Positions 1 through 20,388 of a stretch of DNA of 23,701 nt are shown here, piece after piece. Origin of the DNA: a virus. The stretch spans positions 1 through 23,701 of the IMG/VR virus record IMGVR_UViG_3300008107_000966, one strand, 5' to 3'. The notes under the pieces are model-generated. The model saw only the letters and a program-made list of their open reading frames with translations, was not told where the DNA came from and made no database searches. The number at the start of each line of letters is the position of its first letter. Positions within the stretch are counted from its first letter, which is position 1. Position numbers and translations under genes: made by a program.

Positions 1-3000
1 GCCGTAGTTATCTTGAAGATCCTTGCGCTTTCCTTCTTTACCTAGTCTATCTTTGTGACCAGTGCTGTGTGCAAGCTCGTGAATCAAAGTTTCAAAAATA
101 TCTTTTGGATCTGTAAACTGCTCTCTTAGAGGCATGTAGATTTTGTCTTCAGTAGGTGTGTAGTAAGCACCGTCTTGAGCTCTGTAAGTAATCTCTGGCT
201 TATCCTTGTAAGCATCTAGAACTATCTGTTCTGCTTCGGTTACTGGAACAGGGTCTCTAGTAACCAGTGGTGGCAAGCTAATTCCTTCTGCTTGCTCGAC
301 GTTAAATACTGGAATGAACTTAGGTGGTGTCCAGTAGAACTGTTTTTCAACAGTACCATCAGGTTGAGTTACATCTCTAAATCGTGGTGTCCAGTGGATG
401 ATGAAAGTTGCTTTCTCACCCTTCTTAATATTTCCACCAAGCTTTTCTGCTTGCTTGTATGTCAACCATCGGTTATCAGTCCAGTTGTTCTTTGTTGCAG
501 CAGCCCAGAGGGTGAGAATGTTTGTTCCACGGTATGGCTTGCCTGTGCTTACGCTAGTTGGCAAGAATCCACCACCAGTCCAAGGCTTGCGCCAAGGAGG
601 TGTTCCCTTTTCAATCATTTCGATGATTGCATCGGCAATTGCTTCTGTCTTCTCATCAAGTTTACGAGCAGTCTTTTCAGAATCCTTAACAGCTTCTTCA
701 GCAGTTACTGGGTCGATATCTTTTCCGACCTTCATTCCAAGAAGAGCTTCAACTGGATCTAAGTTTGCAGATTCGTCTGCTTCTGAAGTTACATCTGTAA
801 TCCAAGCAAGAGATCCAAGTTCAACAGCTTCCTCAGCACGAGTTACAGCAACGTATGAAAGACGCATTTCTTCTGGAGCTGGAAGCTTCATAGAACCATC
901 TTCTTCACTAAGCTCTGGACCCTTAAAGTCGTCAAATATTCTTACACGCTTCCACTGCTTGCCCTTTGCTTTGTGAGCAGTGATAATTTCTACTTCGATT
1001 GGCTTTTCTGGCTTGTAGCCACTTGCGGCTCTCTTAATCTTGTTAATTAAAGGTAGAAGCTCTTGCTTGTTATCAAGCTTCTTTGAATATGTAAATTGTT
1101 CAGGGTTGTATTCAAAACCTGCTCCTCTAAGAAGAGTCGAGTAATCTCCTCCATTTTTAATGGTCATTACGCCATTGTCTACAGAGTACTCAACATCAAC
1201 AGGGAACTGTCTTCCACCCTTGCTAATAGTCTTGTATCCAAGAACTCCCTTAGACCCATCCTTGAGATCATCGAGTGTTACAGGTACATATGGAGCGGTT
1301 GGCTCTGGCTTATTAGTAATCTTTTCGATTCGTGAGAGGACATCCTTAATGTCTTGAGGAGATTTATCTCTCAAAATGTTAACCATGTATGCCGCAGATC
1401 CTAAAGACTCTCCCTTTTGTACAGCGGAGATTACTTCTGCCCATGTGTTGAAGCTAGCTAAATCTTTATGTGCTCTTCTAACTCCTGGAGATACTCCACC
1501 AGCACGACCTGCACGCATCAACCATTCGATATCTTTGATAAGAGATTCATAGTCATTAAATGTCTTCTCATCAATACCAACAACTTTATTCTTTTCTAGC
1601 ATCTCAAGCATTGCTGAGATACCACCACCATTTGTTCTGGTGATGATTACTGTTGGATCTTCCATGACATCGAGGATTTCTCCATCTTTGCCTGGTAAAC
1701 CTTTGACACGATACTTAGATTCTAGCTTTGTAAGGAATCTATTTGCCATACCAGCGATCTTCTCGCCAAAGCGGAAGGTTTCTGTAATAGGCAAGTCATA
1801 ATCTGCTACAACGTTGTCTAGCTCGTCGATAGCACCACGGAAACCGTAGATTGCTTGGTTGCTATCTCCAACATAAATAACTTGAACATCTTTCTGATCA
1901 CGCATAACTTTAGCCATAACAGGGTTAATATCCTGAGCTTCGTCATACATAACAACATTGACATCTCTTGTTACTGGCTTACCCTTTGAGTCTGGACCGA
2001 TGAGTCCCTTAGAGAAATCTGGCTTAGATAGAGCCCATGCTTTTGTTAAGTCGCTAGGTGATGTGTAAAGCTTTCCTGTAGGACTTGAAAGATCGTCCCA
2101 CCACTTGTTTGCATACTCGATAAAAGCAGCTGGAACTTCATCTAAATTCATTCCAGCAAAATGCTTTACTGTGACTTTGTCGTCATCTGAAGCTGTGAAC
2201 TTATCAAGAGCATCTCTAAGAATTTTAGGGATATCTCTTGTTGAAAGGTTTTGCTCTGTTCCCTTTACTTTTACTGGTGTAGGAACTATCCCTAGGTGCT
2301 TAGAAATGTCTGGACCGTTAAGAATGAACTCTGCTTTTCTTGCTTTATCTCTAAGAGCTGGATTGACGTTCCAATAACCGATTGAGTCAGCAGTTCTTGG
2401 ATCTGTGTTGTCTGGGAACTCTTTAGAAGCTTCAACCTGAACAGACTTGTTAAATACGATGTATGTAATCTTCTTATCTGGCTTTTCTGCTTTAAGACGC
2501 TTTGCAGCAAGCTTGAGAGTTGATGTCTTTCCAGTTCCAGCCAAAGCACGAACAACGACATTCTTACCAGTCATAACTGCATCAATAACTGAGCGCTGTT
2601 CTGATGTTGGATTGATGCTTGCAATTCTGCTGTAATCAAATACATCTTCATCTGTACCGAGAACGCTTGGAGTTGGCTCTTCGTCATCTTCTTCTGGCAT
2701 AACTGCCATAGCTTGTAGCCCAACGATAGGGCTTGTGTAAGTATCTAGAGCGTTCTTGAGATCGATGGAGGATGTGTTCTTTTGGTTCTCTCCAGACCAA
2801 GTAATAGTTCCATCTGGCTTTATTGTTGCAAGATGTTCTTTTCTTAAAATGTATTCTGGAGTTGCCTTGAAAACAAGGATGTCATCTGGGCTAGAGATGT
2901 TCATCATCTCTGCATAACTTGCAAGCTCTCTTCCGTTTGGCTTATCAAAACCAAAGGTTACATTCATAGGTTCGCCAGTTTTTAGGCTTGGCATAAAGCT

Positions 3001-6000
3001 TTCTGTTGAAACCTTAGCTGGAAGATTTTCCTTGATAGCACCTACAACCTCTGGAGATGTAGAGACAAAGTTTAATTCTTCAGCAAGCTTGTTACGCTCT
3101 GCTTCTTTATCTTTCCAAGTCTTTGCAAGCTCTTCAGGGTTTGGAAGATTTTCTGGAGCATCTACACCTTCAGGAACAGGCTTAGATTGGATGTTCTTGA
3201 TTGTGTCTACAACATCTTGAACTGTCTTTGTAGATGTCTTATCAGCTGGGCGTAGGATGTCACCAGCGTTAATAACTCTTGGTGTGTAACCATCTGTTGC
3301 AGCATCGATGATTGACAAGCTGTCGCTTGCTACAGGTCCCTTAGAACCATCATCATATTTAATCTTTGCATAGTTGGAGTATCCAGCCTTGCCATATGTA
3401 TCAAATAGATTTACTACGCGGCCAGTCTTTTTGTTCTTAACATTAATAACTCTATCGCCCTTAGCAAGCTGTACACCTTCTCTGGTGAGATGCTCTGAGG
3501 TCTTTTCTCTATCTGCACCAAGTACTTGATCCTTGATGCTTTCATCAATGTTTGCACCCTTGACAGCTTCTTTAATAGTTTCTTCAGACTTTGCACCAGA
3601 TGTGATTTCATCGACGGCATCAGCAGCAACTGTCTTTACTTGGTCATCGGTTAGCTCTTCGCCCTTCACTGGAGCTACAGGCTCAATAACTACTGGAGTT
3701 TCATCAACTGGATCTGGCTTGATGGAATCGACATTGATCTGAGCGCTGCTCTTATCTCTGTTTCCATTAGGTCTAAAGATTCCGCCTTCAAGTCTTCCAT
3801 TCAAGAAGAACCCTGTTCCACCATCTTCTCTTACAGAGTCTCTGTTTTCTAAGACAACGCCATCTTCAATATCTGCACGGAATACTTTGACTGCATTTGC
3901 TGGATCTGACTCATCGTCTGCAAAAGCAACTACCTCTTGATAATTTCCATTCTTGCCAACAATAAAGTCACCAAGCTTGAGATCCTTAATTCTTGCGTTA
4001 TCTATAAATGTTGTGTTCTCTGGATCTTCAACCCAGTCCTTGTTAATTACTTCATCAGAGAATGCTGACTTATAAACTTTAGGAGTTACAACAGTCTCTT
4101 CACCATCAACAACTACAACCTTTTCATCGCCAACAGCGTTGATTTCTCCGACAGCTGCATCAATATCTGTAGTCTTACCAGATAGGAGTCGATCTGCTTG
4201 GATTGCAGCAATATCTTTAGCTCTCTGGTCACGGGACTTAATCCACTTGTCATATCCAGCGTCATACTTCTTGGTTGCTCCTGTTGTCTTAAAGTCTCCA
4301 GCTTGTACCTGAGACATAAGAGCACGAAGGACCTTCTCGGTTACATCGATATCAAATGCTGCATCGTGGAATCCACCTGGCGCATCTGTAGAAACACCAA
4401 GGCGCTGTGCCAAAGCCTTTAATGCATTAGAAGGAGCTACAAAACGCTTCTTCTCTTCTGAGTACTTCCAGTCAGCTCCATTGATTGTTACAACATCACC
4501 ATCAGCAGGATTTTCTGGGAATTCAACTGACTTCTGGTCTTTAGCTTGTAGAGCCTTAGCAATTGCTAGTGTGTCTACTGTTCCACCCATTGAGAAGTCA
4601 AGGCCAAGCTTTTCTGCCCAACGTTCGAGCAAGTTAATATCAAATGTGTTGTTCTGACCAACAAGGATTGGTTTTTCTCCAAAGAAATCAAGGAGTTTTT
4701 GCAGCTGCTCTTTAACATCAGGTTGTGTAGCTAGCCATTCATCTGTGATTGGGTTGCCTTCAGAATCTCTTAAGCGATCAGCTTTAAGAACTCTATTTCC
4801 TTCTGCATCTGTTTCATAGTAGTAAGTTGAAAGAGGTTCACCTGGGTTAATGAAAAGATTTAGCTCTTCTACCTTTTCTCCATTGACATACTTTGATGCT
4901 GCAACTTGTATAGGAGCATCTGGGTTAAGTGAGTTAGCTACATCTTTTCCAATTGTCTCGAAGTCGAAGACAATGAAGCCCTTCTCATCGAGAGCCTTCA
5001 TAACTTCAGAGCCATCGCCAAGAGCTAGGAGCTCTTCAGCAGATCCGTAGAATGCTGGAAGATTTGGCTTAGACTCTAGAGGAGTCACTCCCTTAAATGC
5101 ATCTGTTGTAGCAAATACTGGTGAGTAACCCTTATCTGCTTCAGCAATCTTTTCTTTGCGAGCCTTCTCGAGCTCTGCATAGTTTGGAAGAGTTTTATCT
5201 GGACGATCTAGAGGTTCTTTATCTCCAGCTGCAGGAAGATTTGTCTCACCACGAATTACTTCAATGTTAGTTCCAGAACGCCATTCTTTAGTTTGTGTCT
5301 GATGTCCAACATAATGTCCTTCAATAGTTGTTACACCATCTTTGCTTCCTACAACATTAGTTACAACAAAGAATTCCTTGAGACCATCTTTGTCTCTTCT
5401 AAATGCAATGTCTCCAACTTTAACCTCAGATGCTGCAACATTATCTGTATAAAGAGGATTTTTAGGAGTTGTTGGTGAACCTGACTTCGATTCGTCGTTT
5501 TCTGCAGTAACTTCTGGAGCTTGCCAGAGTGCCTTACGACGAGCAAGTTCTTCGTCATATGCTTTGTAATCTTCTAAGAATTTATCTGCAAGAGCTTTAT
5601 CCTTTGGCGCCCATAGAGTGCGATCCTTGTATTTAACCTTTGTCTGGTTTGGATATGCAAAATCTCCATAATCTTCAGCTTTAGGCTGATTAAGTTCTGG
5701 AAGATCTCCCTTTGCAGGAGGAGTTGCTCCACGATAAACCTCTGGTGCATAGTTGTCTGACCAAAGCTTGCTGGACTGTTCTACAGAACCTGGATAGTAA
5801 CCAGTTACTCTGTATGAAGGAACTTCTTGAACTTTTCCGTCAACACGAACTGGCTTTGTTCCTTCCTGTTCAATCTTGGTAATTGTGAAAGAGTCATCGA
5901 CCTTTACATCGCCTGGTTGTAGTTCAGAAGTTCTTATATTAAGTTTCTTTACAAGAGAAGATGCAGGAGTTGATTCAGTTTCTGGGGTTGTAGTTTCTTC

Positions 6001-9000
6001 TACTAAATCAGCGTTGCGTACAACCTCATTACTCTTCCTATAATCATTAAGATCAAGACTTCCGTTATATGTACTTACAAATTCTCTTGTTCCGTCTTCA
6101 TATGTGTAGATATATTCTTCAATAGTATATTTTCTGTCTCTGCCAGGCTGTGGATCTCTTCTTGTACGCTCTAGTTTTACAATGCGCTTCCAAGTGCCAT
6201 CAGGTTGCTTTACCCAGTCGCCTTCTTTCTTCTTGTGAAGAGATACGAAGTCTTCAACTACTCCAGTACCAGGAGCGTTTTCATCGTAGCCAGGAATTTC
6301 TTTAATCTCGTAACCATCTGCTGGATTAAGAGTTACTTTCTGTCTCCATGGGTTCCCACCGATCTGACCACTTGATTGATCCCAAGTGCCATCTTCTCTC
6401 TTTTTATACTCTATTCCTCGAGCAGTATCAACAACAACTGTTCCAGCAGGTAGGTAATCAAGATTATCGCCGTCCTGAGTTTTACCTCCAGGAACAAGTC
6501 TTCTTACTTTCTTAGGAGCTTCCGCTGGTTTTTCAGCTGCAGGTGCTTCAGCAGGAGTTGGAGAAGCTTCTCCCTTCTTGCCACGAATATATTCTTCAAT
6601 GAGGCTATCTTCATATGCCTTACGACGAGCTTTCTTTGCCTCTGCAATAATCTTTGCACGATCAGATGCGACTCTTTCTGACTCTATTCGAGCATCAATC
6701 TCGTCATAATAAAGATTGAGAATGTCAATCATGTCCTGATCAGAAAGTTCGTTGAGCTTACTTTCATAATCTTTCATAGCATCTCTGATGTATGGAGACT
6801 CGTTCTTTCTAAAACCAGCTCCCCACTTGAACCACATTAATTTAGCAATCATATCCTTGCGAGAACCGAAGATTGGAGCTGCTGGATCAGTCTTCTCTTT
6901 TGCCTTGTCAATTAGTTCATCAATAGTTGGAGTTTCTTCTGAGCCAAGAACTTCGTCAATTACTTGATTTTCTGGAGATTTAGTAGATGATAATGGCTCT
7001 CCAAGAACAATTGAGTCAATTCTACGAGTCAACTCATCATAAGCATCACGAAGAGCTTGCTTTTCTTCTGAAGTTGTCTCTTCAGCAAGATCAGCTTCAT
7101 CAATAGCGTCTTGAACTTTACGACGCTCTGAAACAAGGTCTTTAAGAACTTTTTTACTGTTATCATCAAAAACAATATTGTCTGATCCCTCATCAGTCAG
7201 CGCACCAAGTTCTTCAAGAAGACGATCATTTTCTTCAAGTGCTTCATAGATGTCTGTTGGATTTGCTTCAGGTAAGGCTTTTAGTATTTGTTCCAGTGCT
7301 TCGCCAAGTTCCTTACGTTCTTTAAGAAGCTCTTTAATTCTTGCTTCTTTTTCTTCTGGAGACATTTCTGATACATCTTTTGTTTCAGGCTTTTCAGAAA
7401 TTGGAGCTTCTTCTGTAATTTCAGGTGTTTGAGCTGGCTTTTCTTCTTCCTTTGGTCCAGCTTTGATATCTTCAATTTCTTTTTTAATCTTTTCAATTCT
7501 TTTAGCCATGCGGTCTTTTACAGAAGGCTTGACATCATCTTGCTTGATAAGTCTTTCAACCATCTCAAGCTCGTTTTCTAGATCTGCAATCTGTCGTTCT
7601 TCTCTGCTTGGAGACGGTGCAGGAGCTTCTTCTACTGGTTTCTCTGCAGATGGAGCATCGATGTCAATTGCTTCTTCACCAGCACGAGGTTGTAGGTCGA
7701 TTCCAAAGCGATCACGAAGTTCACGAGCAAATGCTTTGAACTCTTCGTCATCTTGTAATTTTGTCTGAGCCTTTACATTGATAACCTTGCCGTCACGCTC
7801 TACAGTGTCTGACCACTCAAAACCATTTTCTGCAAGGAAGTCTGCAACTTCTTTATCTCGGAATGGTGCGCCTTTACCAGCACGAAGCAGTGTGCGCTTT
7901 CCAGCACGCTTATAAGTTACTTGCTTCTTTACAGGCTCTTCAGGAGTTGGAGCTTCTGCTTCTGGAGTTTCTGGCTTAGCTGCCTTTTTTGGCTTTGCAA
8001 TTTTCTTTACAGCTGCGTTTGCATCTTTACCACGAAGTGCGATTGCATCTCGTAGAGATTCTGCAGAAACTGGGACATCTACTGGTTCGCCGTTTTCATC
8101 AGCGCCTGGAATATTGGCAGTGCCATCACCTTCCATAGCTTCTTTAAGTTTTTCATTAAGAAGTGTGTTTGGAGCAACGCTGCGAGGAGCTGCTGCAATC
8201 TCCATAGCTTCTGAGCGATCTTTTTCTGAAGATACGCCTGGTTTGTACATTCCTTCTGGAACTTCAACATCTTCGTTCTTTGGAATGTATTTGCTGTAAT
8301 CCTTTGAGTCAAAGATCGACTGCTTCTCTTCATCAGAAAGACCTTTAAATGCAGGAACACTGTCAAGATCATCAACAGTCATTCCAGTTTCTTCTTCTGG
8401 AGTTGCCTCTACCTCTGCTTCTGGCTCAGTGATTTCTGGTTCAGGAGCTGTTTCTGGTTCTGTCTCAACAACTTCATCAAACTTCTCTTCAAGATCTGCT
8501 GGCTTGGCTGCTTCTTCAACCTTCTTACCAGTGCGAGCTTCCATAAGAGCATCTTCATTTTTGCTGTTTCCAGCAATCTTGTCATAAGCTTTTGCAAGAG
8601 CCATTTCTGGATCTTGCCCTTGTGCGTCAAGTGCAGCTGCAATTGCTTCTGAACTAACATCTTCTGTTCTTCCATCTGGAAGATCTACTGGAGCAAAACC
8701 TGTTGCTCTATCAGTTGCACTTACTGGTTCTACAGAACGGAAAAGAGCATCTTCTAGGTCTGGTGTATCAACGCCAGCAAGAAAATCTGGGTCATCAAAA
8801 TCAAACTCTGGTGTGTACTCTGCAGTTGGATCAAATTTATATGCACGATCTGGAACTGTGAATGGGAAGCCTTCACCTTCTTTTGCTTCTGGCTTCTCTG
8901 TTCTCTTCTTACCGTCAAAAATTTTGTCTGCTTGATCTAGAAGCGGAGTTGTGTCATCTGAAGTTCTAGGCTCAGGGCGTGTGTAGTCACGACCTTCTTC

Positions 9001-10221
9001 TTCATCAAGATCTGGTTCATCTTGCATGATTTCGTTGTTTACATCTTTCCATTTCTGGGCAAATGCAAAATTAGTCTTCTGACCACGGCGAGCAACTGCA
9101 AAAACTGGTTCTTCTGGATTCCAGAACTGACGACCTGTATCTGGATCTGTCTCTCCAGTCTTTAGTTGTTTTGGAGCTGGCTTATCTAACTCTGCTGCAC
9201 GCTTGATTGATTCATCAAGCAAAGGCATTGCATCTTTAGGGCTGTCAAATTTAATAATGTCGTATTTATCGTCTGTGTATTTAGTTCCTTTACCTCTGTA
9301 ATCATCTTCTTTGCGATAAATACTAGGTGCATCACTAAATACAATTGAAGATTCTGGAATTACTGGGGCATTAGTTGGGTCTGCTTCTTTTTGAGAAAAA
9401 CCATCAACAGAGTCTGGATCAGAAATAAATGCTTTTAGACCTTCACCAGATTTAACTGGTACTGAAGCAACTTTTCCTTTACCAACTTCAATATCAACAA
9501 GCTGAGGAGAAAACATGTTCTGATTAAGGACAACACCTGAGTGGCTTCGTGTTGTTCCATCGTTTCTACGAACATAAGTTCTAAAACCATCTGTGGAGCG
9601 CTTCTTAAGAGAGCCAAACATATCGATCCAGCGCTCGAAGCGGTCTGAAAGCTGTACAGCTTCACGAGCACGACGGGCTGCAGCAGAGTTCTTACCTGCG
9701 TAAGGGTTTGCAGCAGCTGTAAGAGTCTCAAGAGGTAGTTCTGATGTTGGAATGTTCTCTAAACGAGTTAAAGCGTATTTGTACTCTGCAGAATCTGTTG
9801 GAGCAGACATAGCAGAAGCAACAAGTGATTTTACGTCATCATTTTTGATTCTTGGGTCATCTGTATACCAACGAATCTTTGCTTGAACTAATGCAGACGC
9901 TGATAATGCATGAATTTTTGTAGATCTTGGATGAGAAATTGGAAGAAGATCTGTGTGGTCTGCCATAAGACCAATAATTTTGTTGTGCTTGGCAAGTGAA
10001 ATATAGTTTGAAAGATCAGTAATGGCTTTATGCTTGCGAATAGAGAAAGGAAGTCCACGGGATTGGCTAAGAGAACGTGCAATTACTTTGTAAGCAGCTT
10101 TGCGATTAACTCTACGAGATCCTACAGAAAATTCGTTGGCTTTATCAACAAGCTCAATTACTTCACGACGAATAAGTCGAGCTTGCTCACGGGTAGATAA
10201 GGATCTTTGATTAAAAATCAT
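1..10221 (-). CDS. Giant phage polyvalent protein: DEDDh exonuclease, UvrD-like helicase, ArdC domain and HExxH metallopeptidase (C-terminus off the window)
   Basis: This is one uninterrupted frame of 3407 codons from ATG at 10221 to the window edge. It starts 2 bp after the upstream stop, behind a GAGGAAGAG ribosome site. Residues 1-300 are unrecognised. About 400-1200 is acidic, Pro/Ala/Glu-rich and coiled-coil (K/E heptads near 870-1150). Several small beta modules with a 'GD' turn lie about 1250-1720 and 2000-2350. A DEDDh 3'-5' exonuclease has D1753-F-E1755, D1861 and H1952-DAAF-D1957. An SF1 UvrD-type helicase has Walker A AGTGKT (2561-2566), Walker B DEAQD (2760-2764), a GDSNQAIYGFRG motif, TAHKAKGKQW (from 3081) and an arginine finger TRAEE (R3128). 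An ArdC N-terminal ssDNA-binding domain begins at PPWRKPW (3208-3214). A zinc peptidase motif HELAHSTGH spans 3381-3389. This domain mix defines polyvalent proteins, thought to be packaged and injected to protect and process incoming DNA. Linkage to the portal operon agrees. Domain calls are firm; the function in vivo is inferred. Confidence 0.93.
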   Translation of the reverse strand, partial: MIFNQRSLSTREQARLIRREVIELVDKANEFSVGSRRVNRKAAYKVIARSLSQSRGLPFSIRKHKAITDLSNYISLAKHNKIIGLMADHTDLLPISHPRSTKIHALSASALVQAKIRWYTDDPRIKNDDVKSLVASAMSAPTDSAEYKYALTRLENIPTSELPLETLTAAANPYAGKNSAAARRAREAVQLSDRFERWIDMFGSLKKRSTDGFRTYVRRNDGTTRSHSGVVLNQNMFSPQLVDIEVGKGKVASVPVKSGEGLKAFISDPDSVDGFSQKEADPTNAPVIPESSIVFSDAPSIYRKEDDYRGKGTKYTDDKYDIIKFDSPKDAMPLLDESIKRAAELDKPAPKQLKTGETDPDTGRQFWNPEEPVFAVARRGQKTNFAFAQKWKDVNNEIMQDEPDLDEEEGRDYTRPEPRTSDDTTPLLDQADKIFDGKKRTEKPEAKEGEGFPFTVPDRAYKFDPTAEYTPEFDFDDPDFLAGVDTPDLEDALFRSVEPVSATDRATGFAPVDLPDGRTEDVSSEAIAAALDAQGQDPEMALAKAYDKIAGNSKNEDALMEARTGKKVEEAAKPADLEEKFDEVVETEPETAPEPEITEPEAEVEATPEEETGMTVDDLDSVPAFKGLSDEEKQSIFDSKDYSKYIPKNEDVEVPEGMYKPGVSSEKDRSEAMEIAAAPRSVAPNTLLNEKLKEAMEGDGTANIPGADENGEPVDVPVSAESLRDAIALRGKDANAAVKKIAKPKKAAKPETPEAEAPTPEEPVKKQVTYKRAGKRTLLRAGKGAPFRDKEVADFLAENGFEWSDTVERDGKVINVKAQTKLQDDEEFKAFARELRDRFGIDLQPRAGEEAIDIDAPSAEKPVEEAPAPSPSREERQIADLENELEMVERLIKQDDVKPSVKDRMAKRIEKIKKEIEDIKAGPKEEEKPAQTPEITEEAPISEKPETKDVSEMSPEEKEARIKELLKERKELGEALEQILKALPEANPTDIYEALEENDRLLEELGALTDEGSDNIVFDDNSKKVLKDLVSERRKVQDAIDEADLAEETTSEEKQALRDAYDELTRRIDSIVLGEPLSSTKSPENQVIDEVLGSEETPTIDELIDKAKEKTDPAAPIFGSRKDMIAKLMWFKWGAGFRKNESPYIRDAMKDYESKLNELSDQDMIDILNLYYDEIDARIESERVASDRAKIIAEAKKARRKAYEDSLIEEYIRGKKGEASPTPAEAPAAEKPAEAPKKVRRLVPGGKTQDGDNLDYLPAGTVVVDTARGIEYKKREDGTWDQSSGQIGGNPWRQKVTLNPADGYEIKEIPGYDENAPGTGVVEDFVSLHKKKEGDWVKQPDGTWKRIVKLERTRRDPQPGRDRKYTIEEYIYTYEDGTREFVSTYNGSLDLNDYRKSNEVVRNADLVEETTTPETESTPASSLVKKLNIRTSELQPGDVKVDDSFTITKIEQEGTKPVRVDGKVQEVPSYRVTGYYPGSVEQSSKLWSDNYAPEVYRGATPPAKGDLPELNQPKAEDYGDFAYPNQTKVKYKDRTLWAPKDKALADKFLEDYKAYDEELARRKALWQAPEVTAENDESKSGSPTTPKNPLYTDNVAASEVKVGDIAFRRDKDGLKEFFVVTNVVGSKDGVTTIEGHYVGHQTQTKEWRSGTNIEVIRGETNLPAAGDKEPLDRPDKTLPNYAELEKARKEKIAEADKGYSPVFATTDAFKGVTPLESKPNLPAFYGSAEELLALGDGSEVMKALDEKGFIVFDFETIGKDVANSLNPDAPIQVAASKYVNGEKVEELNLFINPGEPLSTYYYETDAEGNRVLKADRLRDSEGNPITDEWLATQPDVKEQLQKLLDFFGEKPILVGQNNTFDINLLERWAEKLGLDFSMGGTVDTLAIAKALQAKDQKSVEFPENPADGDVVTINGADWKYSEEKKRFVAPSNALKALAQRLGVSTDAPGGFHDAAFDIDVTEKVLRALMSQVQAGDFKTTGATKKYDAGYDKWIKSRDQRAKDIAAIQADRLLSGKTTDIDAAVGEINAVGDEKVVVVDGEETVVTPKVYKSAFSDEVINKDWVEDPENTTFIDNARIKDLKLGDFIVGKNGNYQEVVAFADDESDPANAVKVFRADIEDGVVLENRDSVREDGGTGFFLNGRLEGGIFRPNGNRDKSSAQINVDSIKPDPVDETPVVIEPVAPVKGEELTDDQVKTVAADAVDEITSGAKSEETIKEAVKGANIDESIKDQVLGADREKTSEHLTREGVQLAKGDRVINVKNKKTGRVVNLFDTYGKAGYSNYAKIKYDDGSKGPVASDSLSIIDAATDGYTPRVINAGDILRPADKTSTKTVQDVVDTIKNIQSKPVPEGVDAPENLPNPEELAKTWKDKEAERNKLAEELNFVSTSPEVVGAIKENLPAKVSTESFMPSLKTGEPMNVTFGFDKPNGRELASYAEMMNISSPDDILVFKATPEYILRKEHLATIKPDGTITWSGENQKNTSSIDLKNALDTYTSPIVGLQAMAVMPEEDDEEPTPSVLGTDEDVFDYSRIASINPTSEQRSVIDAVMTGKNVVVRALAGTGKTSTLKLAAKRLKAEKPDKKITYIVFNKSVQVEASKEFPDNTDPRTADSIGYWNVNPALRDKARKAEFILNGPDISKHLGIVPTPVKVKGTEQNLSTRDIPKILRDALDKFTASDDDKVTVKHFAGMNLDEVPAAFIEYANKWWDDLSSPTGKLYTSPSDLTKAWALSKPDFSKGLIGPDSKGKPVTRDVNVVMYDEAQDINPVMAKVMRDQKDVQVIYVGDSNQAIYGFRGAIDELDNVVADYDLPITETFRFGEKIAGMANRFLTKLESKYRVKGLPGKDGEILDVMEDPTVIITRTNGGGISAMLEMLEKNKVVGIDEKTFNDYESLIKDIEWLMRAGRAGGVSPGVRRAHKDLASFNTWAEVISAVQKGESLGSAAYMVNILRDKSPQDIKDVLSRIEKITNKPEPTAPYVPVTLDDLKDGSKGVLGYKTISKGGRQFPVDVEYSVDNGVMTIKNGGDYSTLLRGAGFEYNPEQFTYSKKLDNKQELLPLINKIKRAASGYKPEKPIEVEIITAHKAKGKQWKRVRIFDDFKGPELSEEDGSMKLPAPEEMRLSYVAVTRAEEAVELGSLAWITDVTSEADESANLDPVEALLGMKVGKDIDPVTAEEAVKDSEKTARKLDEKTEAIADAIIEMIEKGTPPWRKPWTGGGFLPTSVSTGKPYRGTNILTLWAAATKNNWTDNRWLTYKQAEKLGGNIKKGEKATFIIHWTPRFRDVTQPDGTVEKQFYWTPPKFIPVFNVEQAEGISLPPLVTRDPVPVTEAEQIVLDAYKDKPEITYRAQDGAYYTPTEDKIYMPLREQFTDPKDIFETLIHELAHSTGHKDRLGKEGKRKDLQDNYG

Positions 10222-10223
10222 TT

Positions 10224-10604
10224 TTACTCTTCCTCGTCAATAGGAAGTAGGTCTGCATCTAGGCTTTCTTCACCTAGAGATGCTAGAAGAGCTGCTCTCT
10301 TGAATGGATCCTCTCCATTACGGACTGCACGAAGCCAAGATGCACGAATTGCATGCTCTGCTTCATATCCTAAATTTGAATACTCTGTTAGAGCAAGGAT
10401 TGCATCTTCTGGATTTGGATAATCTTCTGAATTACCGATACCTGCTTCTAATTCTTGCTGGTAGCTCCATTGTTCTGAAAGTTCTGCGAGCTCTTGTTCT
10501 GACTGGATGTTATTTCCAAGCTTTTCACCTTCGAGAACTCCGACATCAACGACGCCATCTGGAATAACCGCGAAACGACACTTACCTTCGTCTTCGACTT
10601 CCAT
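10224..10604 (-). CDS. Hypothetical acidic phage protein (126 aa)
   Basis: I do not recognise the family. The protein is acidic and ends in an IDEEE tail. The first 35 residues look like beta strands (KCRFAVIPDGVVDVGVLEG) and the rest looks helical (ASWLRAVRNG, KRAALLASLG). It sits between the Cys-rich 213-aa gene and the giant polyvalent gene, so it belongs to the late/virion operon. The start is uncertain. ATG 10604 has no purine-rich ribosome site, and the frame stays open upstream back to 10634, where it could be reached by a +1 shift at the GGG-TAA end of the preceding gene. Codon use (GAA, GAC, GTC) supports this frame over the two others that are open here. Confidence 0.72.
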   Translation of the reverse strand: MEVEDEGKCRFAVIPDGVVDVGVLEGEKLGNNIQSEQELAELSEQWSYQQELEAGIGNSEDYPNPEDAILALTEYSNLGYEAEHAIRASWLRAVRNGEDPFKRAALLASLGEESLDADLLPIDEEE

Positions 10605-10626
10605 GTCGATGATTCTGCACGAGCCG

Positions 10627-11268
10627 TTACCCAGTCATTCCTGGTCTGTGCGAAACAGAATATGCTCCTGCACCACGACGATAAACGGCTTTTAACATTC
10701 CTAGAGTTGCACGACGTCCCTTTGAAGCTTTTTCATTGTGCTTTGCAACTTTTTCACGAAGAGACTTCTCTACTGATGCTGAAAAATTAATTTTGCGAGA
10801 TCCAGATGCTGAACCTTTTTTATTTTTGCTTGATCCCTTAATGCGATCTTTTTTTGGAGCTGGAGTTTGAGAGATTGTGCGCTTTTTCTTTGCTGCAGCT
10901 GTCACAGGACCACCAGCAACCCAAGCGCGGCATGTACGAGCTGATGCACATTTAAAATCAAATGCTTCGCAGTATCCAAGCTCCCCAGCTGCATCGATTG
11001 AATCAAATTCATCTGAGTTATCTGTTAAACCAGTCTCAATACAAGAAAGCATTTCTGGTGTTTGGATAAATACAGCGCAGTTGCCACAAGTTTGCTTCTT
11101 AGCAGTCTCTGAATCAACGCCCCACTCAGAACCAAGTGCAGTCCAATACTCTTCGTTTGGTTCTGCAGGGTTAAGCGGTCCATACATTGCTGTATCGATT
11201 GCGTTCTTACGATTTTTAAGATTAAGTGCAATATCCTGCGTTGCGGGAGGACAAGTTTCTTCAGCCAT
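10627..11268 (-). CDS. Cys-rich phage structural-operon protein with C-terminal RGAGAYSVSHRPG motif (213 aa)
   Basis: The ATG follows directly on the portal stop codon (TAAATG), so the two are probably translationally coupled. Residues 61-113 hold six cysteines (C61, C64, C76, C100, C107, C113) in a CGNC...GYCEAFDFKC...TC pattern, suggesting a bound metal or Fe-S cluster. Residues 125-165 are a Lys/Ser-rich linker. The C-terminus (185-212) carries RRATLGMLKAVYRRGAGAY followed by SVSHRPGM, a motif I recall from small C-terminal domains of phage head-operon proteins (DUF5824-like). In those proteins I expect it to continue with W-x-x-AR. Here a TAA stops it at GMTG, while W-V-T-A-R-A-E-S is present in the -1 frame just past that point. 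It may be truncated, frameshifted, or simply a short version. Role unknown; head assembly or maturation is plausible from position. Confidence 0.8.
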   Translation of the reverse strand: MAEETCPPATQDIALNLKNRKNAIDTAMYGPLNPAEPNEEYWTALGSEWGVDSETAKKQTCGNCAVFIQTPEMLSCIETGLTDNSDEFDSIDAAGELGYCEAFDFKCASARTCRAWVAGGPVTAAAKKKRTISQTPAPKKDRIKGSSKNKKGSASGSRKINFSASVEKSLREKVAKHNEKASKGRRATLGMLKAVYRRGAGAYSVSHRPGMTG

Positions 11269-13014
11269 TTACTGCTGAGCCTCCTCTGTGTTTTCGGCTG
11301 GTGCTTCTGATGCAATACCTGCTGCTTCAGCCCCTGCTGCTGCTTGCTGAAGTGCTTGTTCTACCTCTGGAGGTAGTGGAGCGACAGATGCTGCTTGCTG
11401 TGCACCACGGATCTTGTTAATCACCTCTGGTGCAATAGCTCCAAGCATTGCTTCTGTAAATTCTGGTGTGATTGCACCCTTTTCTTGTAGAAGTCGAACT
11501 GCGACTTCTGTAGGAGTTGGTGCATCTTGGTCTGAGAAGCCATGAGCACGACGCCATGAGTCTGCAGAGACTGCCATACGGTCATAACCAGCGTCTGCAT
11601 CTGCAGCACGGTCATTGCGAGTTGCAATTGCTGATGGGTCATACCAAACAACAATGCGATTTACTTGTGACTCTTCAAAACCGTTTGCAAGAAGGTATGG
11701 ACGAAGATAGACAACAGTTAATGCATCTGCAATAAGCAACATAAGTGGCTCGATGTGTGCCTTGTATAAAGATTCGTCAATTTGCAGTGCGTTTGAGTAT
11801 TTAACATTTGCAAGACCTGTCACAACATCCTTTGGAACATCTAGTCCTTGAAGGATACGCTCTAATACACGATCAGCACGTTGTGCAAGTGCTGGATCAA
11901 ATGAACGCTCAAACTTAAACTGCTTAATCTTGTCGCCAAGCTCTGCAGGGCCTCTAATAATAAGTGGGACAACTGCTGATGCGGACTCCTCATCACGAAT
12001 TGGAGTCGTCATCGCATCCATTAGCTGTTCTTCGAATTCGTCCTCTGCTTCTTCAGCAGTAAACCCTGCACCGATACCATCCTCAGAATCGTAGGGGTAG
12101 TCTGCATCGCCTTGCGACGCGACGGAAAGACCATCTGGTAAGTAAAGCGCACCAGCATTGAGACGAGAGCGAGCAGTCGCACGGAATGTCCTATTCAGTA
12201 GAAGTAGTTCGGCGCAAAGATCAAGCAAACCTCTTAGCGATGAATCTGCTTCATCCGAAAATCTTGGATGCGAACGCCAAATGCGTCCAATAAATGCATT
12301 CTTACCTAATTTTGTATTTGCAGTAGCGCCTTGTGAAGAAGTTGATTGTTCACGACGACCAATAACATTAAAACCACCGCGAACATCTGCAGTTACTTCA
12401 TCAACAGAGCGAATATCCCAAGACTCAGGAAGGTTATTTCCTGGGCGAGCTGGCATTTGAACCAAGTAGCATTCTCCTGCAACCGCCAAATTAAGTGCTG
12501 CATCTTTAAGAAGCCCTGCTTGTCCACCATATGCTGAGTTTAATCTAGATAAAGCACGTTCAGCTGCATTTGCAAGTCTTTGGTCAACAATGTTTGAATT
12601 TCTTACAGATACTGGTTGCTCAGATGGATCATCAATTGCTGCTGCATAAATACGAATGCGTGAAACAACAGATGCAACTAGATTAAATGCATACTTGATT
12701 TCACCGATAGCGTCGTAGTATTCCCAAGCTTCTGCTTGCCATGCGCTAGAACCAGCAGCACGACGAATTCTAAATTGTTCGAACTCTCCCTTATCATTTA
12801 TCTTTATTTGAGCTGCTGCAGCTGTAAGAGATCTAGGTGCAGAGTAAGGGACAGCTTTTGCATTGTTGCTGAAAACAGAAACGATTGAAGATGTTGTAGC
12901 TGGAGCTTGAACTATCTGTGTAGAACGAGAAAAAGTTGATCTAGTTCTTTTGCGTGAAGACTTTTTTGGTTGAGGAGATGACTGTTCTGGATTATCGTTG
13001 GTAAAGATACCCAT
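11269..13014 (-). CDS. Phage portal protein (581 aa)
   Basis: This should be the dodecameric ring at the capsid vertex, the docking point for terminase and tail and the DNA channel. The length fits actinophage portals. A Lys/Arg/Ser-rich N-terminus (1-60) is followed by a mixed alpha/beta wing (about 80-260), a long helical stem, then a typical late motif with RILQGLDVPKDVVTGLANVK followed by YSNA and HIEPLMLLIADALT, seen in phage portals that loop around the tunnel. Residues 318-340 hold an acidic insertion (AEEAEDEFEEQ). The C-terminus (540-581) is Ala/Glu/Gln-rich with predicted crown helices. Start: ATG with a strong AAGGAG seven bases upstream. It follows the DUF1360 gene by 36 bp and abuts the 213-aa gene. 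The family call comes from motif memory, not a search. Confidence 0.9.
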   Translation of the reverse strand: MGIFTNDNPEQSSPQPKKSSRKRTRSTFSRSTQIVQAPATTSSIVSVFSNNAKAVPYSAPRSLTAAAAQIKINDKGEFEQFRIRRAAGSSAWQAEAWEYYDAIGEIKYAFNLVASVVSRIRIYAAAIDDPSEQPVSVRNSNIVDQRLANAAERALSRLNSAYGGQAGLLKDAALNLAVAGECYLVQMPARPGNNLPESWDIRSVDEVTADVRGGFNVIGRREQSTSSQGATANTKLGKNAFIGRIWRSHPRFSDEADSSLRGLLDLCAELLLLNRTFRATARSRLNAGALYLPDGLSVASQGDADYPYDSEDGIGAGFTAEEAEDEFEEQLMDAMTTPIRDEESASAVVPLIIRGPAELGDKIKQFKFERSFDPALAQRADRVLERILQGLDVPKDVVTGLANVKYSNALQIDESLYKAHIEPLMLLIADALTVVYLRPYLLANGFEESQVNRIVVWYDPSAIATRNDRAADADAGYDRMAVSADSWRRAHGFSDQDAPTPTEVAVRLLQEKGAITPEFTEAMLGAIAPEVINKIRGAQQAASVAPLPPEVEQALQQAAAGAEAAGIASEAPAENTEEAQQ

Positions 13015-15557: not shown

Positions 15558-15884
15558 ATGGAAATCACAATCACAATAGATGAGCAAGAATTATGGTCTT
15601 CAGTATTCGGTTCTGCTTTTGAAAGTTTCGGAACTCACTGGGACGAAGTTGAATACTTGGACGGCACTGACTGGGACAAGATCGGCAAGGTTCGTTTAGT
15701 TGCTATTGACGAAGTGACTGAAGAAAGAACTGAAAAGATTATCGGAATTGAAGAACTCGGCAAGGCTCTTCCTATTGCCAATAATCAAGTAAGCATGGAT
15801 CTATTTAACTTCGACAACTATGACGCTATTTGCGGTGACGCAGTTCTTCAAGTTGCGGTGTTAGGTGAAGTCATTTACGGATAA
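15558..15884 (+). CDS. Hypothetical acidic protein (108 aa)
   Basis: Monocistronic unit: its own promoter at 15478, ribosome site CTAGGGAGAAACAAAA and a terminator just downstream. The protein opens with MEITITIDEQELW and continues as a mixed alpha/beta acidic protein with EYLDGTDWDKIGKVRLVAID, a helical middle (EELGKALPIANNQ) and a hydrophobic C-terminal strand (AVLQVAVLGEVIYG). It resembles small conserved proteins of unknown function on actinobacterial phages and plasmids, as far as I can recall. No catalytic motif or cysteine cluster is seen. Confidence 0.78.
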   Translation: MEITITIDEQELWSSVFGSAFESFGTHWDEVEYLDGTDWDKIGKVRLVAIDEVTEERTEKIIGIEELGKALPIANNQVSMDLFNFDNYDAICGDAVLQVAVLGEVIYG

Positions 15885-15941: not shown

Positions 15942-16364
15942 TTAAGGCTTAACACCTACATTAGTGCCAGCGAATAAATACGCCAACACCTCTTCATCAA
16001 AGCAACCGCACTCTTCTAAGCCTTTAGACTTTCTATAAGCGTTTATTGCTTCTACTGCTCCATCACCTAAACGACCAAACTTGTCGTTCATGCAACTGCT
16101 AAAGCCAAGTTCAACTAGTCTTAGCTGAACTGTCTTTACGCTTTCTGAATTGCCTTCATAAGCATTGACCTTCAAAGCAGACATGAAAACGATCTTGTCG
16201 CCTTCGGTATTCAACTTCGGTGCTTTGCTTTCTTTATTTGGCTCTTCGGCTTTCATTGTTGAACCATGTTCTGCTCTGTTCATGTCGGGTACGACTGGGG
16301 CAGGGGCAGGAACTACTGGCTCTACTGAACCAAGTAAAGGCTTCAACTCTTCTTGCTCGCTCAT
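15942..16364 (-). CDS. Peptidoglycan-binding protein, PG_binding_1-like (140 aa)
   Basis: Residues 1-70 are a Pro/Ala/Glu/Lys linker with no hydrophobic signal. Residues 72-130 match the three-helix PG_binding_1 pattern: SVKTVQLRLVELGF, then D-x-x-GRLGDGAVEAINAYRKS and the final helix DEEVLAYLF. This domain normally anchors a lysin to the cell wall. Here it is a free protein, made from an ATG that directly abuts the stop of the lysozyme-like gene (TAAATG; GGAGAGG site upstream). C91, C119 and C121 are unusual for the family. Likely the wall-binding half of a two-gene lysin, or an exported partner of the enzyme. Confidence 0.82.
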   Translation of the reverse strand: MSEQEELKPLLGSVEPVVPAPAPVVPDMNRAEHGSTMKAEEPNKESKAPKLNTEGDKIVFMSALKVNAYEGNSESVKTVQLRLVELGFSSCMNDKFGRLGDGAVEAINAYRKSKGLEECGCFDEEVLAYLFAGTNVGVKP

Positions 16365-16985
16365 TTACTTTACCTCTCCAGGGAATCTGCTAAGCCATTC
16401 TTTGAACTTAGCAAAATGTTTTCCACTGGTACTAGTATAAGCGTCTTTGCCTATATGCCATGAACTCCAGTTCTCTCCACCATTGCTCATATGGAAAGCG
16501 ATCTGAACATTAGTTACGGGATTGAATAGGTCTGCGTTATGGTCTAATTCAAACTTCTCCCTACGATCTTCTCCCAAACTACTTATCATGTTGATTTGAA
16601 AGATACCGTAGGAATTGTCTCCAGTTAGGGTATTGCCATTAAAAGCAAGGGGTCTGCCATTACTTTCCTTCTTGGCTATAGCCCAAGCCTCTTTTAGATC
16701 TTGACCTGTAAAGCCTACGACCTGAAGAAGTTCTACCAATTCTTTGTCGGTAAGACTGGTCTTGTTTTCAAAATAAGAAAGAGGGCGAAGCTTTGGCTTC
16801 TTGACTTCCTTCTTCTCTACTGCGAGCGCCTGTTGCGCTGATAAATCTGTAGTTGCCACTTGCTTTGGTGCGACAACCTCTTGTTCTTTCTCTACTGCTA
16901 CAGCAACTGCTCCTGAACTAACTACTATCAGTAAAGATAGAATAGCCAGTAGGTTCTCTGCCTTTCGCTTTGGAGAATAGTTCAT
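16365..16985 (-). CDS. Membrane-anchored lysozyme/lytic transglycosylase-like endolysin (206 aa)
   Basis: N-terminus MNYSPKRKAE then one hydrophobic helix (11-31: LLAILSLLIVVSSGAVAVAV), i.e. a signal-anchor or signal peptide. Residues 32-70 are a Lys/Glu/Val linker. The lysozyme-like domain (about 75-200) has the catalytic-type glutamate E107 in AIAKKESNGRPLAFNG, then SYGIFQIN (125-132) and NPVTNVQIAFHMSNGG with NWSSW, the usual SLT/goose-lysozyme layout. It should cleave the glycan strands of peptidoglycan during lysis. The start has AAGGAAAAACCGA upstream. It is first in a two-gene unit with the PG-binding protein and has its own TTGACT/TATGCT promoter at 17159. The long 5' leader suggests post-transcriptional control. 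Confidence 0.88.
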   Translation of the reverse strand: MNYSPKRKAENLLAILSLLIVVSSGAVAVAVEKEQEVVAPKQVATTDLSAQQALAVEKKEVKKPKLRPLSYFENKTSLTDKELVELLQVVGFTGQDLKEAWAIAKKESNGRPLAFNGNTLTGDNSYGIFQINMISSLGEDRREKFELDHNADLFNPVTNVQIAFHMSNGGENWSSWHIGKDAYTSTSGKHFAKFKEWLSRFPGEVK

Positions 16986-19818: not shown

Positions 19819-20388
19819 CTAATCGGCGTATTGTGTCTGTAAATAGATAGGCTCGCCTGACTGTTTATCAAACTTACAAGATACGGCGAGCGCACTTTTT
19901 AAACTACTTCTAGCATTTGTAAGAGTTCTTTTCTTTCCTTCTGCTAACGCATTAAGCGCACCCAAAGCATACGGCGCACCTGAACCAATAGAATAAACTC
20001 CCAGTTCGTCGTGACACCAAGAATAATCCTCGCCTATCTCATAAATAGTTCCATTAACTATCGCCATTATCTGAGAGTCTTGTTCGCCATCTTTTGAATA
20101 AGAGTTCTCTTCAAAACATTTTTTTAGTTCTGGGATAAAGTGTGTAGTAATAAACTTATCTAACTTCACGCCTCTTGTTGTAGCACTACAAATCGGTGGC
20201 TTGAAAACATGAGCCAAAAGATTTATTGCTCTCATGTCGCCAGCCGCACCTAAAAGATACGAACCATTCTTTACTATTTTTCCATTATCTTTTGGCAAGG
20301 TATAAGCCCTGCCATCTTCTTCTGAAACTCTAGAGTCGTAGCCAACAACAGCCCAGCCCTCACCCTGAACGGCAGCTATTGTTGTCAC
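19819..20388 (-). CDS. Proteasome/HslV-like Ntn hydrolase (189 aa)
   Basis: Begins MTTIAAVQGEGWAVVGYDSR. After loss of Met, Thr2 would be the N-terminal nucleophile, and D18 then falls at mature position 17, exactly as in proteasome beta subunits and HslV. A lysine follows (K37 in NGKIVKNG, matching Lys33 of the family) and the late GSG motif is present (VYSIGSGAPYALGALNALAE). Length fits a bare beta-type subunit with no propeptide. It starts with GTG behind AAGGAA and follows the 82-aa gene by 21 bp. It could assemble into its own protease ring, or interfere with the host proteasome. The fold call rests on these motifs; the target is unknown. Confidence 0.85.
   Translation of the reverse strand: MTTIAAVQGEGWAVVGYDSRVSEEDGRAYTLPKDNGKIVKNGSYLLGAAGDMRAINLLAHVFKPPICSATTRGVKLDKFITTHFIPELKKCFEENSYSKDGEQDSQIMAIVNGTIYEIGEDYSWCHDELGVYSIGSGAPYALGALNALAEGKKRTLTNARSSLKSALAVSCKFDKQSGEPIYLQTQYAD

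Follow-up and report, generated by a model that had tools for sequence, protein, structure and literature searches.

The window, i.e., the whole stretch of DNA that was analysed, measures 23,701 bp and is an entire IMG/VR record. It contains a minus-strand frame that runs from position 10221 to position 1, comprises 3,407 codons with zero stops and is open to the window edge. The frame starts with an ATG at 10221, which has a GAGGAAGAG stretch directly upstream. As the window is the whole record, the truncation of this giant gene is caused by the end of the contig. The features of the gene and of its upstream neighbours are the following.

1–10221, minus strand: gene of the giant polyvalent protein, of which the window has 3,407 codons (3′ part missing at the contig end); ~3,730 aa in full
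1–192, minus strand: first part of an MPTase-PolyVal zincin with HELAH, residues 3344–3407, completed in contig L101
385–648, minus strand: ArdC-N domain, residues 3192–3279 (PF08401, 1.3e-29 and 3.0e-33; ArdC structures 6i89/6sna, 3e-30)
823–2649, minus strand: SF1 UvrD-type helicase, residues 2525–3133 (phrog_1967, 2e-69; PDB 9xzj, 3e-18)
4267–5001, minus strand: DEDDh 3′-5′ exonuclease, PolC/DnaQ-like, residues 1741–1985 (RNase_T, 1.3e-10; PolC models, ~1e-15)
5002–5946, minus strand: region conserved family-wide with one weak internal repeat, residues 1426–1740
6622–9234, minus strand: acidic, indel-rich, fast-evolving linker, residues 330–1200 (from dN/dS, gaps and acidic composition)
9442–9693, minus strand: GNS module, a (G)NSxxAR..R..Q.xDRx.RW helix with a small beta barrel, residues 177–260, proposed start of the mature protein
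9709–9723, minus strand: motif LTAAA, residues 167–171, followed by a hinge predicted to be flexible; best candidate for a site of the capsid protease
9811–9825, minus strand: motif LVASA, residues 133–137, conserved, within a predicted helix
9892–9906, minus strand: motif LSASA, residues 106–110, degenerate in divergent relatives; weak candidate site
9724–10221, minus strand: helical N-terminal domain, residues 1–166, a distant DUF5824 relative; proposed propeptide or capsid-targeting domain
10224–11268, minus strand: remnant of a DUF5824 gene between portal and giant, 454 aa in relatives, split by 320 bp missing near 10633
11269–13014, minus strand: portal protein gene (phrog_776, 1.7e-108; 75% identity to the DSL-LC01 portal)
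12814–12828, minus strand: LTAAA near the portal N-terminus, portal residues 63–67, of the site class that defines the motif

The frame continues in other contigs. In contig L101, of which the protein is 99.9% identical to the giant of the window, it extends up to a stop codon after 3,689 aa. L101 lacks 42 aa of the exonuclease that are present in the window and in other close relatives, so the full-length protein is estimated at ~3,730 aa. An uninterrupted relative (L104) has 3,692 aa, counted from the same ATG. The first-pass annotation had described one unbroken frame of more than 3400 residues up to the window edge, which proved correct, with both relatives carrying the frame on. The 42 codons absent from L101 lie near positions 7862–7864 of that locus, and the catalytic residue E1755 is among them. 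The window thus misses 320 bp that are found in L101, and L101 misses 42 codons that are found in the window, as could be expected if the long frame were an assembly artefact fusing several genes. This explanation is hardly tenable, being refuted by independent contigs: many of these have open frames of 2,600–3,976 codons, and the complete genome of phage DSL-LC01 has an annotated gene of 3,289 aa. Moreover, dN/dS of the giant against close relatives is 0.17 overall and purifying throughout, which indicates that the frame is not a chance ORF. Chance or assembly fusion was rejected on these two grounds. The ratio is lowest on the enzymes (0.03–0.07; 0.05–0.07 for exonuclease and helicase and 0.04–0.07 for ArdC), and residues 420–1200 of the acidic linker evolve fastest (0.28–0.29), with repeated gaps.

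Pfam matches of the giant were judged against curated cut-offs, and all six listed domains lie above them: RNase_T (1.3e-10), AAA_19 (9e-9), UvrD-helicase (5e-8), UvrD_C (8e-7), ArdcN (1.3e-29) and MPTase-PolyVal (1.1e-11). The PHROGs agree with this assignment. The DEDDh residues of the exonuclease are D1753, E1755, D1861, H1952 and D1957, with the three Exo motifs complete; the acidic residues D/E/D/D are invariant in all relatives that cover them and the histidine is found in 22 of 27. The helicase has its motifs in order, i.e., Walker A AGTGKT at residue 2561, DEAQD at 2760 and motif VI TRAEE at 3127, and both its N- and C-terminal Pfam domains were found. The ArdC-N domain contains PWRKPW at residue 3209, and HELAH of the zincin is located at residue 3381. 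The first-pass annotation had called these exonuclease, helicase, ArdC and zincin motifs intact, as is confirmed by their positions and by the Pfam domains. The zincin domain itself is incomplete within the window. The C-terminal extension of L101 completes it (PF18818, 6.6e-18) and holds a second HExxH motif (HEIAHLMEG...GGH), for which the Pfam SprT-like match is weak (E 0.02). This second motif beyond the window edge was absent from the first-pass annotation, as was the N-terminal module. The succession of ArdC-N and an HExxH zincin is collinear with 6i89 over 209 residues. The closest solved structures are F-box DNA helicase 1 for the helicase, PolC for the exonuclease and ArdC for the C-terminus. 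PADLOC matches to GajB and to a CRISPR-associated DEDDh protein were rejected as a defence system, as they reflect generic UvrD and DEDDh similarity. Repeated beta modules had been claimed as well. A single pair was recovered (residues 1472–1548 with 1633–1697, ~30% identity, E 0.002), which lends weak support to this part of the claim; strong repeats were rejected.

Sequences related to residues 1–330 of the giant are encoded in at least 250 IMG/VR stretches. In the 27 contigs examined, open frames measure 2,609–3,976 codons, and the frames of several relatives are interrupted, either by sequencing error or by real decay. Alignment to the window revealed that residues 1–735 and 1426–2114 are conserved family-wide; the helicase and ArdC belong mostly to one branch. 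The DEDDh exonuclease was detected in 24 of the 27 contigs (the other three records are short or partly covered), and ArdC-N in only 12. A Pfam search of four C-termini from other branches returned nothing but the exonuclease and one weak NUDIX match. The same helicase type is carried on a different backbone by gp77 of Arthrobacter phage Mimi. The family forms a mosaic in which the front is constant and the back exchangeable. One contig (IMGVR_UViG_3300047564_003843, 160,704 bp; L072 and L079) has two portal-plus-giant loci and possibly consists of two related genomes joined together.

The gene is found in a slot with a fixed order, i.e., portal, large variable proteins, capsid protease and capsid protein. 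Downstream of the giant, relatives encode a small protein, a long protein with the capsid protease, and the major capsid protein (MCP). In the window, the DUF5824 gene on the portal side is split into frames of 213 and 126 aa, which may represent a population variant or an assembly error. Besides in the close relatives of the window, the slot between portal and capsid protease/MCP was seen in seven annotated phages: Arthrobacter Mimi, DSL-LC01, Microbacterium Pumpernickel and A3Wally, and Gordonia GMA2, Forza and Phendrix. Their slot proteins are large and mostly unannotated. Orf10 of GMA2 is annotated as a ‘putative structural protein’; the genome paper of this phage included virion mass spectrometry (PMC4524720). 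The C-terminus of Orf10 (L006 7981–10632) additionally has a weak match to Acb1 (anti-CBASS) or 2H phosphoesterases (Pfam E 8e-4, under the curated cut-off), and searches for this domain in PDB and PADLOC gave no match. Forza gp80 (L007 22172–25225) is a slot protein of 1,017 aa with a C-terminal ADP-ribosyltransferase domain (PF03496, 7e-18). Since DSL-LC01, which comes from a lake, is predicted to be an actinophage (PMC10611076), the virus of the window, also from fresh water, likely has an actinobacterial host; a search for a host link via GTDB genomes found no relative.

Elsewhere in the window, a transglycosylase (16365–16985; SLT_3, 1e-14) adjoins a weakly matched peptidoglycan-binding protein (15942–16364), and the two are likely a wall-degrading pair. 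The region 19819–20388 has a weak proteasome-subunit match (PF00227, 0.007); as an HslV-like protease gene is annotated in DSL-LC01, it possibly encodes a phage peptidase. On the plus strand, opposite to the head operon, a 108-aa frame (15558–15884) is probably a real divergent gene, since it is well conserved in L011.

Like the polyvalent proteins described by Iyer et al. (2017; PMC5512222), the giant combines several disparate enzyme domains in one chain and contains the hub domains ArdC-N (PF08401) and MPTase (PF18818). Moreover, its gene adjoins virion genes, between the portal and the capsid protease/MCP, as is the case for phage polyvalent proteins. By these criteria, which can be tested on sequence, it is a polyvalent protein, and the label given to it by the first-pass annotation stands. 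Its size and UvrD helicase had also been put forward as notable. Both are precedented, as a plasmid polyvalent protein of 12,242 aa with a UvrD helicase has already been reported (Iyer et al., PMC5512222) and close relatives of the giant reach 3,976 aa. The new elements are the exonuclease core and, at the N-terminus, the shared module proposed for delivery, including the motif. The main text of PMC5512222 does not list the near-constant DEDDh core among the polyvalent domains, nor does the paper describe a conserved N-terminal propeptide or tag module bearing a protease-like motif. The combination of ArdC-N and a zincin is shared with ArdC of plasmid pSa (PDB 6i89, 6sna; E 3e-30), but in the giant it forms the C-terminal module of a huge phage protein.

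Two slot proteins illustrate what is kept and what is exchanged. Mimi gp77 (2,709 aa, ‘DNA helicase’) resembles the giant in its post-portal position, in a helicase that is 34% identical over ~600 aa and in an N-terminal RDKxGRW module, but the exonuclease, ArdC and the DUF5824-like domain are all undetected. WJZ48510 of DSL-LC01 (3,289 aa, ‘hypothetical’) has the same slot, motif and module and is homologous over its N-terminal 330 residues (31%), whereas the DEDDh exonuclease, the UvrD helicase and ArdC are undetected.

DEDDh nucleases and UvrD helicases are common replication proteins, and coliphages have stand-alone relatives of the helicase of the giant. Hence, the protein could be an ordinary intracellular replication or recombination protein that acts on replicating phage DNA and never enters the virion. 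This is improbable in view of the head-operon position in every relative seen, the presence of ArdC-N and MPTase, and the motif and module shared with head proteins; besides, DSL-LC01 and Pumpernickel have separate helicase, polymerase and recombinase genes elsewhere. An equally improbable option is a mainly structural role of the giant inside the head, as a core- or scaffold-like protein whose enzymes are secondary or used during packaging. Its very large size, acidic linkers and place in the head operon would fit such a role, for which abundant internal proteins of the SPN3US type are a precedent. Against it, the catalytic domains are under strong purifying selection with conserved catalytic residues, and it is the C-terminal enzymes that vary among relatives, the N-terminus being constant.

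The N-terminal domain is conserved across 29 sequences with identities down to ~36%. Comparison of residues 1–166 with the DUF5824 region of the neighbouring protein gave an hhalign probability of 94%. In the AF2 model of the N-terminus (pLDDT 77), which replaced an earlier model from nine sequences (pLDDT 49), a low-confidence hinge at residues 175–185 (pLDDT < 50) joins the helical domain to the GNS module. Among viral folds, the model matched ChaB, XkdF and ‘prohead protease’ proteins of uncultured phages (E ~0.01–0.05). A fold search in PDB returned nothing beyond weak matches (E > 0.1) of the small barrel to Spindlin/Tudor-like structures. The RDRxGRW-type module recurs among the slot proteins of several phages: its pattern [RS]D[RK]..[GE][RK][WF] occurs 7 times in 27,679 residues of slot proteins versus 0 times in 144,217 residues elsewhere.

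Every portal N-terminus of the group bears an (L/M)(T/V)A(A/S)(A/G)-type motif, ~25–65 residues in. The motif [LM][TV]A[AS][AG] was defined from the portals alone, portal and MCP were left out of the counts, and the expectation was derived from shuffles. Slot proteins contain 26 copies versus 1.1 expected and all other proteins 7 versus 5.8. The P-values lack strict independence, given that the motif was first spotted by eye in portals as well as slot proteins and that related genomes were compared, but the contrast with the controls holds. The reversed motif and two altered (permuted) motifs stay at background level, without enrichment in slot proteins. For a slightly looser motif, 40 copies were counted in slot proteins versus 3.2 expected, and 21 versus 16 elsewhere. 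Most MCPs of the group have a copy at the junction of an acidic N-terminal region and the conserved mature part, e.g., EAPVTAAADN in a relative of the window and EMAMAASAAD in GMA2. Furthermore, of 52 distinct relatives, 48 have [LMVI]xA[ASG] no more than 16 aa before the GNS module, as compared with 3% of random windows; Mimi gp77 and Pumpernickel gp82 are without a perfect motif ahead of the module. Literature searches in open-access papers yielded no description of the motif.

One candidate cleavage motif is thus common to the giant, MCP and portal, as in processed head proteins of the T4/SPN3US type. Head proteins of SPN3US shed N-terminal propeptides of 111–254 residues, some being cut at several motif copies (PMC10052503), and in P1 DarB the first 30 residues are enough for packaging (PMC9024508). 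Based on the shared sites and propeptides of the former and the head targeting of the latter, we read residues 1–170 as a targeting propeptide that would be cut by the capsid protease. As proposed, the giant would resemble T4 internal proteins, P1 DarB and SPN3US gp53/gp54 in having an N-terminal targeting region and in a head protease that processes portal, MCP and internal proteins alike. A sequence relationship to these head-packaged proteins was not seen, and the motif differs from that of SPN3US, which is AXE. It was rejected that all copies of the motif are cut sites. Some lie in helices or folded regions, including those of MCPs and proteases, and the first site, LSASA, is degenerate in relatives, so not every copy can be cut.

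That MCPs and proteases have conserved copies within their folded parts would also fit a role of the motif as a structural or interaction element in a giant that is packaged all the same. Any processing would then be carried out by the zincin(s) of the giant itself, a mechanism that Iyer et al. proposed for P1 DdrB; the chain has two HExxH motifs, and the N4 virion RNA polymerase is packaged uncut (Iyer et al., PMC5512222). We regard this as rather unlikely, since the motif is common to the unrelated portal, the MCP boundary and the giants, is at background elsewhere and is positioned at a predicted hinge.

Taken together, the slot, the motif and the N-terminal module that is common to the relatives provide indirect evidence for delivery, beyond the list of domains that had been drawn up before. 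Probably, an actinobacterial tailed phage loads the giant into its head as a polyvalent protein that is targeted, cut by a protease and injected. Judging from the operon, it would be made late, together with the portal and capsid proteins. Its N-terminal helical domain (~170 residues) may bring it into the assembling prohead, where the capsid maturation protease would cut at [LM][TV]A[AS][AG], the motif common to portal and MCP. This cut would free a mature chain that starts near the GNSxxAR..RDRxGRW module and that presumably enters the host with the DNA on infection. From the properties of the respective families, the DEDDh exonuclease may then trim or protect DNA ends or degrade attacking nucleic acid, and the UvrD helicase, in this branch, may translocate on the incoming DNA. 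Likewise, ArdC-N would bind DNA and shield it against restriction, and the zincin peptidase(s) could separate the modules or attack host proteins.

A wider reading, for which the scales are about level, is that of a general head-delivery system common to actinobacterial phages. Interchangeable, often giant effectors would occupy the post-portal slot, each with an N-terminal targeting region and with the capsid-protease site [LM][TV]A[AS][AG] of portal and capsid protein, so that injected cargo could be read from the motif and RDRxGRW. Hitherto, the assignment of polyvalent proteins to virions has relied for the most part on the neighbourhood of their genes. A processing motif and an N-terminal module that are shared would provide a sequence handle on which actinophage proteins load into the head. 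The slot already holds likely counter-defence factors, i.e., ArdC in the window, an ADP-ribosyltransferase in Forza and possibly an Acb1-like domain in GMA2, and could be mined for others. If validated, the tag would offer a means to load chosen proteins into phage heads, as has been done with T4 and P1 tags.
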